Of a stretch of DNA of 15,581 bases, positions 200 through 9,677 are shown in pieces. The position numbers were made by a program, and so were the translations under genes. The stretch spans positions 1 to 15,581 of the forward strand of contig JAEWHQ010000224.1 in assembly GCA_023387715.1 (NCBI GenBank), given 5' to 3'. Each line of letters begins with the position of its first letter. Position 1 is the stretch's first letter. The DNA comes from Pseudomonadota bacterium (GTDB taxonomy: Bacteria > Pseudomonadota > Alphaproteobacteria > Rhizobiales > Rhizobiaceae). The notes below the pieces were generated by a model. It saw only the letters and a list, made by a program, of their open reading frames with translations. It was not told the DNA's origin and did no database searches.

Positions 200-802
200 T
201 CAAGGACGAAGTTCGCTTGATGCCAATCGCAAAGCATAGCGCCGGATATCTTCCGGCCAGCCTCGAATTTGCTGCTGCATCTTCTCCTGATCGCCCGCAA
301 ATAAAGCGCGAATAGCCTCTTCATAGCCTTCTAAATCACCTGCCATTGTGTACATGAACTGATAGGCCGCTTCCTGTGCAGCGCGCTGTGTATCGCGGGG
401 CCCTGCATGGCGGCGAGCTTCATCCACCAACTTCCGCAACACGGCAGATGCACCGCCCGGTTGTTTTGCCAGCCAATCCCAATGGCGCGGCAACAAGGTC
501 ACCTCACGCGAAACGACACCTAGTTTCGGCCGCCCTCGTCCGCGTGGTTCTGGTTGAACCTCATCCTCCGCAACTGATGTAACGCCATATTGAGAAGTCA
601 AACGTGCAGCAATTTCCTGCTCGCTGCCACGAATATCCAGATCAATAATCCGTCCGGTTTCATCATCAAAAACCAAAACAGCACTCGTCGCATCAGTTTC
701 TAATGTCGCCTTCACAGCTAGAGCTGCTTCTAGCAAAGCACCGGAAAATAATAATTCCTGCCCATTAAATGCGGTGCAGGATTTTGAAAGGGTCAAAGTC
801 AT
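200..802 (-). CDS. DUF2239 family protein; candidate AT-hook/RHH DNA-binding autoregulator
   Basis: A 200-residue soluble protein with the DUF2239 pattern, recognised from the block GRPKLGVVSREVTLLPRHW followed by an AKQPGGAS turn. No function is established for the family. Residues 87-93 (RGRGRPK) resemble an AT-hook core. Residues 97-132 read as strand (VVSREVTLLP), helix (HWDWLAKQ), PGG turn and helix (ASAVLRKLVDEARRHA), the order of a ribbon-helix-helix DNA-binding unit. The C-terminal third is helical and charged. I chose the ATG at 802, not the GTG at 832. The likely -10 on this strand (847-852) puts the transcript start near 840, leaving the GTG no room for a ribosome site, while the ATG has GGA 9 bases upstream. 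It diverges from a GIY-YIG gene across a symmetric promoter. DNA binding is my inference. Confidence 0.88.
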   Translation of the reverse strand: MTLTLSKSCTAFNGQELLFSGALLEAALAVKATLETDATSAVLVFDDETGRIIDLDIRGSEQEIAARLTSQYGVTSVAEDEVQPEPRGRGRPKLGVVSREVTLLPRHWDWLAKQPGGASAVLRKLVDEARRHAGPRDTQRAAQEAAYQFMYTMAGDLEGYEEAIRALFAGDQEKMQQQIRGWPEDIRRYALRLASSELRP

Positions 803-842
803 ATGCGTATTCCATTGATAAAAATCAGTCACTCTTCATTTT

Positions 843-896
843 CTTATTATTACCCGTATAAAATTCTTGCGTCAATATTACCCGTGTAATAATAAG
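843..896. promoter_or_regulatory. Mirrored divergent promoter with repeated operator boxes
   Basis: An 11-bp inverted repeat (CTTATTATTAC at 843-853, GTAATAATAAG at 886-896) frames this region. Plus strand: -35 TTGCGT (867-872), 17-bp spacer, -10 TAATAA (890-895). Minus strand: -35 TTGACG (870-875), 17-bp spacer, -10 TAATAA (847-852). The two -35 elements overlap by three bases. Two direct copies of TATTACCCGTRTAA (848-861 and 876-889, one mismatch, 28 bp apart) each cover one spacer and reach the -10. The second copy is itself a TTAC-N4-GTAA palindrome. One bound protein would block both genes. Confidence 0.75.
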
Positions 897-913
897 CTTT
901 CACAAAATTCATA

Positions 914-920
914 AAAGGAG
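914..920 (+). promoter_or_regulatory. Strong ribosome binding site of the GIY-YIG gene
   Basis: AAAGGAG ends 7 bases before the ATG at 928. It fixes this start over the other ATG codons nearby and suggests efficient translation once the divergent promoter is released. Confidence 0.8.
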
Positions 921-927
921 CCTTCAT

Positions 928-1263
928 ATGCAGGGTATTGAACGAAAAGCTGCAATCGCAGCCTATAAAGAGAGAAAAGTTGCAAGCGGCATTTACAGTA
1001 TCACCTGTCAAGCAAGTGCTGAAAGCTGGGTTGGCCACTGGACAAATATTGACGCAATCAAAACGCGGCTCTGGTTTACCTTGCGCCAAAACAGCTCAAT
1101 GCAAAAAGCATTACAAAGCGCATGGAATACCCATGGCGAAGATCAGTTCAGCTTTGATATTCTGGAAAGATTTGAAGAAGACGAGCCTGAATACATCCGT
1201 GCATCAATACTAAAAGAAAGAGCATTATTCTGGCGCGAAAAGCTAAACGCCTATGCCATATAA
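928..1263 (+). CDS. GIY-YIG nuclease family protein (short, single-domain)
   Basis: A 111-residue protein made almost entirely of one GIY-YIG fold. The GIY is intact at residues 21-23. The second signature is WVG at 34-36, with Trp in place of the usual Tyr. Other expected elements follow: an Arg in KTRLWFTLR (R48), a helix with SAWNTHGEDQFSFDILE (66-80), and an E97-containing LKERALFWREKLNAY end resembling the Glu-containing last helix of GIY-YIG endonucleases. The protein has no extra DNA-binding domain, unlike homing endonucleases or UvrC. It has a strong ribosome site, a good divergent promoter and its own terminator. Nuclease activity is known for the superfamily, but the Tyr-to-Trp change leaves catalysis here open. 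Its partner appears to be the divergent DUF2239 protein. Confidence 0.85.
   Translation: MQGIERKAAIAAYKERKVASGIYSITCQASAESWVGHWTNIDAIKTRLWFTLRQNSSMQKALQSAWNTHGEDQFSFDILERFEEDEPEYIRASILKERALFWREKLNAYAI

Positions 1264-9125: not shown

Positions 9126-9677
<552 letters not shown>

Follow-up and report, generated by a model that had tools for sequence, protein, structure and literature searches.

What does a DUF2239 protein do, and why does its gene lie back to back with that of a small GIY-YIG-fold protein? The question is raised by a 15,581-base stretch of DNA (hereafter the window) from a member of the Rhizobiaceae (contig JAEWHQ010000224.1, assembly GCA_023387715.1), in which the two genes diverge from a shared 125-bp gap. 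DUF2239 genes are common, with at least 7,987 protein clusters and a presence in 51 of 397 sampled Pseudomonadota genomes, and the names DUF2239, COG3644 and PF09998 were not found in the literature searched. The original prediction had read the pair as a two-gene module in which DUF2239 is a DNA-binding autoregulator of its neighbour. We consider it likely that DUF2239 binds DNA sequence-specifically, at an 18-bp palindrome, regulates its own gene and controls a very small regulon including the GIY-YIG gene. Comparison across genomes shows box conservation, co-occurrence and residue loss, and we infer binding by DUF2239, the direction of control, a signal and the function of the effector. The features concerned are the following.

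200–802, minus strand: DUF2239 gene, proposed autoregulator (200 aa from ATG at 802, stop at 200; Pfam PF09998, E 3.7e-80)
846–875, minus strand: predicted sigma70-like DUF2239 promoter, TTGACG (875–870), 18 nt, AATAAT (851–846); 10/12 consensus matches
847–864, no strand: operator box 2, TTATTACCCGTATAAAAT (model score 22.9), overlapping the spacer and −10 of the promoter above
875–892, no strand: operator box 1, ATATTACCCGTGTAATAA (model score 23.0), touching the −35 of that promoter
913–920, plus strand: AAAAGGAG, likely ribosome-binding site of the GIY-YIG gene, 7 nt 5' of ATG 928
928–1263, plus strand: GIY-YIG-fold gene (111 codons), probable non-catalytic effector

Paired operator boxes at DUF2239 promoters

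The gap holds two copies of an 18-bp palindrome (consensus approximately ATTTTAYCCGGRTAAAAT, with ACCCGT as its centre in the window), whose cores lie at 850–861 (TTACCCGTATAA) and 878–889 (TTACCCGTGTAA) and whose starts are 28 bp apart. The box model was built from 52 GIY-YIG promoters whose fetched 6 kb contain no DUF2239. Of 54 GIY-YIG promoters lacking a DUF2239 neighbour, pattern matching found a ATTTTAYCCGGRTAATATTGAC-type palindrome in 52; it is visible by eye in the remaining two, L014 and L076, the latter with a changed core. By this independent 18-bp model the two boxes of the gap are the only sites scoring above 12 in the window. The next best site (9199–9216, score 11.3) lies inside a gene whose product presumably resembles 3-hydroxyanthranilate dioxygenase and is probably a chance match.

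The test set consisted of DUF2239 promoters (250 bp upstream) from 397 evenly drawn Pseudomonadota genomes, of which 51 have DUF2239; the centre genome and a few genomes examined before are among those drawn. At least one box was present in 46, 46 and 45 of the 51 promoters at thresholds of 10, 12 and 14, and two boxes were present in 31, 27 and 22, mostly spaced 25–29 bp apart. At the same thresholds 2, 1 and 0 of 1,020 dinucleotide-shuffled upstream regions scored, as did 2, 2 and 2 of 677 other 250-nt windows from the same loci. Measured against these controls the window boxes (22.9 and 23.0) are beyond chance, and the divergent pair with paired boxes at the DUF2239 promoter, as first described, is real. 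In four of the five misses the boxes precede a GIY-YIG gene that heads a same-direction gene row including DUF2239; the order in L238 and L248 is boxes, GIY-YIG, DUF2239. The rows in L227 (41–2966) and L234 (513–3480) run from the boxes through GIY-YIG, a MarR-like gene and DUF2239 to a MATE efflux gene, all in one direction. Further loci of training-type genomes carry two boxes in 30/30 DUF2239 promoters (29 unlinked from GIY-YIG, one linked), laid out as box 1, TTGAC, ~9 nt and box 2. A conserved operator at the gene's own promoter, as expected of an autoregulator, is thus found in 46/51 promoters, with four more ahead of the gene row, and in all 30 further loci. Two boxes also precede plasmid-borne DUF2239 in Deinococcus gobiensis, Paenibacillus, Comamonas, Burkholderia stagnalis and Azospirillum (5/5 fetched); judged by sequence, the DUF2239 operator is recognisable across three phyla (Pseudomonadota, Deinococcota and Bacillota).

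How would binding act on transcription? Reading TTGACG-18-AATAAT as the DUF2239 promoter places box 1 against its −35 and box 2 over its −10. Shuffled sequences already yield 0.8 sites on average in the consensus promoter scan, so support for this promoter rests on the recurrence of TTGAC beside box 1 in relatives. We propose that DUF2239 would bind the paired boxes, usually 25–29 bp apart, at the −35 and over the −10 of its own promoter, a placement that makes self-repression most likely. It would most likely repress itself and, in the window, the divergent GIY-YIG gene until a signal relieves repression, the output then being the GIY-YIG protein and sometimes a hydrolase. The regulator might instead be an activator or dual, with box 1 upstream of the −35 activating and box 2 over the −10 autorepressing. 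A position abutting the −35 is also used by activators; a single box directly abuts TTGAC in Bradyrhizobium GIY-YIG promoters and lies just upstream of the −35 at many GIY-YIG promoters, an arrangement that would suit an activator too. Yet box 2 covers the predicted −10 of DUF2239 promoters and takes the matching place in hydrolase promoters, and repression is also in keeping with the single box, since it touches the −35 too. We regard activation or dual control as rather unlikely.

DUF2239 as the candidate binder of the box

Among the 397 genomes, DUF2239 was found in 51 and the GIY-YIG gene in 31; 29 genomes have both, 22 have DUF2239 alone and 344 have neither (Fisher p 7e-28, nominal only because related genomes are not independent). 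Sorted by hand from their coordinates, the 29 pairs comprise 12 divergent neighbours, four in the same direction and 13 unlinked. We also analysed 80 GIY-YIG loci, the best 80 of 221 confirmed in the genome collection. DUF2239 is present in the fetched flank of 25 of them, always divergent, and the two matches are 82–150 bp apart in 23 of these 25 pairs. One exception has 918 bp between the genes, with a glutathione S-transferase (GST) gene inside the gap (L018); the other has a 63-bp gap and a DUF2239 match split in two pieces (L040). The split match, on a Reyranella contig, may reflect a broken or misassembled gene. The other 55 loci are mostly from Bradyrhizobium, and DUF2239 was found elsewhere in the genome for 32 of the 34 examined (misses L017 and L068); with the 6/6 examined genomes that have an adjacent pair and also scored for DUF2239, this makes 38/40. 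By coordinates, a divergent pair also sits on six plasmid records, from Azospirillum (3), Novosphingobium (2) and Phyllobacterium (1). Azospirillum brasilense Sp7 has the pair as well, and DUF2239 is present in a Caulobacter vibrioides genome used as a control. The adjacency survey suggested at the outset thus uncovered a conserved neighbourhood (25/80 loci, all divergent; 29/31 GIY-YIG genomes with DUF2239).

The box follows DUF2239 even where the partner is missing or distant. It is kept in 21/22 DUF2239 genomes without GIY-YIG (by-hand count; in L228 only at a low score of 12.4) and at 12/13 unlinked GIY-YIG genes in DUF2239 genomes, and it is absent at 2/2 GIY-YIG hits in genomes of the 397-genome sample without DUF2239. 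Across 192 alphaproteobacterial genomes, a loose 20-base pattern with two mismatches gave hits in 42, mostly chance-like sequences; the strict core A[CT]CCGG[AG]T[AG]ATATTGAC, picked by hand after the hits had been seen, occurs in 7/15 DUF2239 genomes and 0/177 others. The box following DUF2239, the co-occurrence and the strict-core distribution together make DUF2239 the simplest candidate binder, and on this comparative evidence it is very probably an autoregulator that binds the box. The proposal that DUF2239 is a DNA-binding autoregulator linked to GIY-YIG is borne out to this extent: the operator follows DUF2239 across phyla, and both the co-occurrence and the neighbourhood are conserved.

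Several observations weigh against this assignment. At least three of the 13 genomes with unlinked pairs are also in the model training set; the control of GIY-YIG without DUF2239 comprises two genomes, one of them with a weak match (E 3.5e-4); no box was found at a GIY-YIG hit (partial match) in the DUF2239 genome L302; and the model scan found no box within the fetched stretch of the L242 DUF2239 locus, the fifth miss above. As a side observation, in L303 (2630–3510) a GIY-YIG gene is followed by a reading frame that is MarR-like by eye, with no DUF2239 found in the genome and no box; the GIY-YIG gene may have come under the control of a different regulator.

Alternatively, the box could be bound by another, unlinked transcription factor, with DUF2239 and GIY-YIG merely its targets. 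This would fit the lack of a significant match between DUF2239 and any known DNA-binding family, which leaves binding to rest on comparison, and it has a possible precedent in two Caulobacter GIY-YIG genes, CCNA_00744 and CCNA_01405, which are reported to respond to host and phage XRE factors (PMC10688885) and may or may not belong to the family of the window protein. Such a factor would, however, need to accompany DUF2239 through Pseudomonadota, Deinococcota and Bacillota and vanish with it (strict core above), whereas DUF2239 itself carries the box in nearly every sampled genome and GIY-YIG carries it only where DUF2239 exists, the latter control being those two genomes. Conservation within DUF2239, moreover, is highest in a basic arm with a segment of two short helices. 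We judge an unlinked factor distinctly improbable.

The putative DNA-binding segment

Membership of the window protein in PF09998 is clear (268.5 bits against a gathering cut-off of 25, covering profile positions 1–182 of 182). An alternative start codon exists (GTG at 832, minus strand), and alignment shows the ATG at 802 to match the N-termini of most relatives. The closest named relative among the matches listed is a Paenochrobactrum glaciei protein (92% identity), which marks the source of the window as a Paenochrobactrum-like bacterium of the Brucellaceae. The part of the protein that would contact the operator is:

410–541, minus strand: proposed DNA-binding segment, DUF2239 codons 88–131, GRGRPKLGVVSREVTLLPRHWDWLAKQPGGASAVLRKLVDEARR; an AT-hook-like arm followed, should the proposed fold be correct, by strand-helix-helix

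The RGRGRPK motif, reported as directly preceding a PGG-containing segment, is present at residues 87–93 and is followed by REVTLL-PRHWDWLAKQ-PGGAS-AVLRKLVDEAR. In a set of 56 relatives, filtered at 75% identity, 39 positions are conserved in ≥90% of the proteins, and 26 of these fall within codons 88–131. Ribbon-helix-helix autoregulators (BrnA-type, MetJ, Arc, CopG) act as a class through paired palindromic operators, such as the DUF2239 promoter likewise carries, and BrnA has a GRP-basic arm, a VTL stretch, a short helix, a GG turn and a second helix in the same order as DUF2239. Contacts to DNA would then be made by the invariant GRPKLGV arm together with the REVTLL-helix-GGAS-helix segment, in the form of a ribbon-helix-helix-like dimer.

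The predicted structure, of a monomer, contains both helices (105–112 and 117–131), at a predicted local distance difference test (pLDDT) of ~68–79 over 101–130. Other results keep the fold tentative: no strand is assigned at 97–104 and pLDDT is <50 at 74–100; Foldseek returned no PDB match for the model at E ≤ 0.001; the profile of BrnA aligns in register, but the match is weak (hhalign P 0.009, probability 4.6%, with 5/300 column shuffles reaching the score); and neither a PDB sequence search nor Pfam connected DUF2239 with any known DNA-binding family, Pfam giving no ribbon-helix-helix hit either. DUF2239 also differs from BrnA and the ribbon-helix-helix families in its extra N- and C-terminal parts. 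The model only suggests a ribbon-helix-helix fold. Six IMG/VR contigs (L268–L273) encode DUF2239 relatives, and these may be truly viral or lie in flanking host sequence.

A GIY-YIG fold without nuclease residues

The window GIY-YIG protein has no Pfam hit; the profile built from its relatives finds the I-TevI catalytic domain (E 1e-6), which assigns it to the GIY-YIG fold. With this fold in common, the equivalents of I-TevI Tyr17, Arg27 and Glu75 are absent in its close relatives. The window protein has Trp34 (1027–1029), Ile44 (1057–1059) and Ala99 (1222–1224) in their places; across 77 close relatives the Tyr17 position is Trp in 77/77, the Arg27 position Arg in 0/77 and the Glu75 position Glu in 0/77, and in a wider set of 21 relatives all three residues occur together in 0/21. 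For I-TevI, PMC1952068 reports that Y6A and E75A abolish activity and calls R27 and E75 critical, with residual activity in R27A. Unlike GIY-YIG nucleases, the 111-aa protein also has no room for a second DNA-binding domain.

The pair had been suggested to be a toxin-antitoxin-like, DNA-processing or defence element, that is, an active nuclease restrained by DUF2239. The loss of the three residues in close relatives weakens all of these readings. A toxin-antitoxin system would be a tight two-gene unit with both genes obligatory; here the partner is absent from 22/51 DUF2239 genomes and 13/29 pairs are unlinked. As for defence, no relative of the GIY-YIG protein was found in the viral contigs scanned; PADLOC gave no match for DUF2239 and, for the GIY-YIG protein, weak matches to HEase (5.7e-6) and UzuA (1.7e-4) over the GIY-YIG domain only. 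An active nuclease is thus unlikely, and the product probably acts by binding, its cutting activity apparently lost. CCNA_00744 and CCNA_01405 are also listed in a cspC-mutant transcriptome table (PMC4551563).

More tentatively, DUF2239 may found a new transcription-factor family with an operator recognisable in at least three phyla and a GIY-YIG 'pseudonuclease' as partner, a non-catalytic sensor or co-regulator; we hold this broader view to be possible, though doubtful. The pseudonuclease could, for example, bind DUF2239 itself, an electrophilic metabolite or a modified nucleotide; the two proteins would then make up a new type of signal-response module, whose outputs may include detoxifying enzymes. 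Knowing the operator makes this uncharacterised protein a regulator that can be put to the test, with a list of predicted targets in every genome. Its partner would exemplify a nuclease fold kept without nuclease residues, and annotation alone is insufficient to name such GIY-YIG genes nucleases or defence genes.

A proposed small regulon beyond the pair

Does control stop at the two genes? A genome-wide search with the 20-base pattern gave 31 rows in 21 genomes (0–3 per genome) against one hit in a reversed control. Hand placement put 28 of the 31 at DUF2239, GIY-YIG or hydrolase promoters and three elsewhere, two rows being the other strand of a listed site. Some known boxes escape the pattern, for example those at Bradyrhizobium DUF2239 promoters, a further point on the opposing side, and the regulon size is therefore a lower bound. 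The same box elsewhere in a genome would allow control in trans, often of GIY-YIG and in some genomes of an alpha/beta hydrolase. The claim that GIY-YIG is the only other controlled gene holds insofar as GIY-YIG is often a target, but fails where alpha/beta hydrolases carry the box; likewise the two-gene module exists as a pair, but its genes and boxes are part of a larger regulon that acts in trans.

Alpha/beta-hydrolase genes with boxes were found in Kaistia terrae (L134), Phyllobacterium (L135), L190, L191 and L306; the L190 and L191 genomes resemble each other, and the L191 box has a glyoxalase-like gene on its other side. Of the hydrolase relatives in the phylum sample 30 were fetched, and boxes occur only at the two closest. 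Small dedicated repressor regulons with detoxification targets are familiar from the TetR and MarR types, which likewise have one autoregulated switch, few promoters (0–3 here by pattern) and enzymes such as alpha/beta hydrolases among their targets. DUF2239 differs from these in having no Pfam link to them, a recurrent GIY-YIG-fold partner and an operator recognisable across three phyla.

By position, GST, MarR-like and MATE genes are further candidates for the regulon. In Bradyrhizobium (L105, 641–1306) DUF2239 is divergent from a GST gene (PF02798). The GST gene between DUF2239 and GIY-YIG in Rhodopseudomonas (L018, 5241–5900) has a box on either side, and its product is 80% identical to the L105 GST. 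Their position is what points to box control of the GST genes.

A Paenibacillus plasmid (NZ_LC597664.1, L157, 2474–4524) carries two boxes, which score 33.4 each, followed by a row of three genes: DUF2239, a DUF1330-like gene (scoring below the Pfam cut-off) and an alpha/beta hydrolase. The hydrolase shares 68% identity with the one in Kaistia, which suggests horizontal transfer. The plasmid is mobilizable and also carries tet(L).
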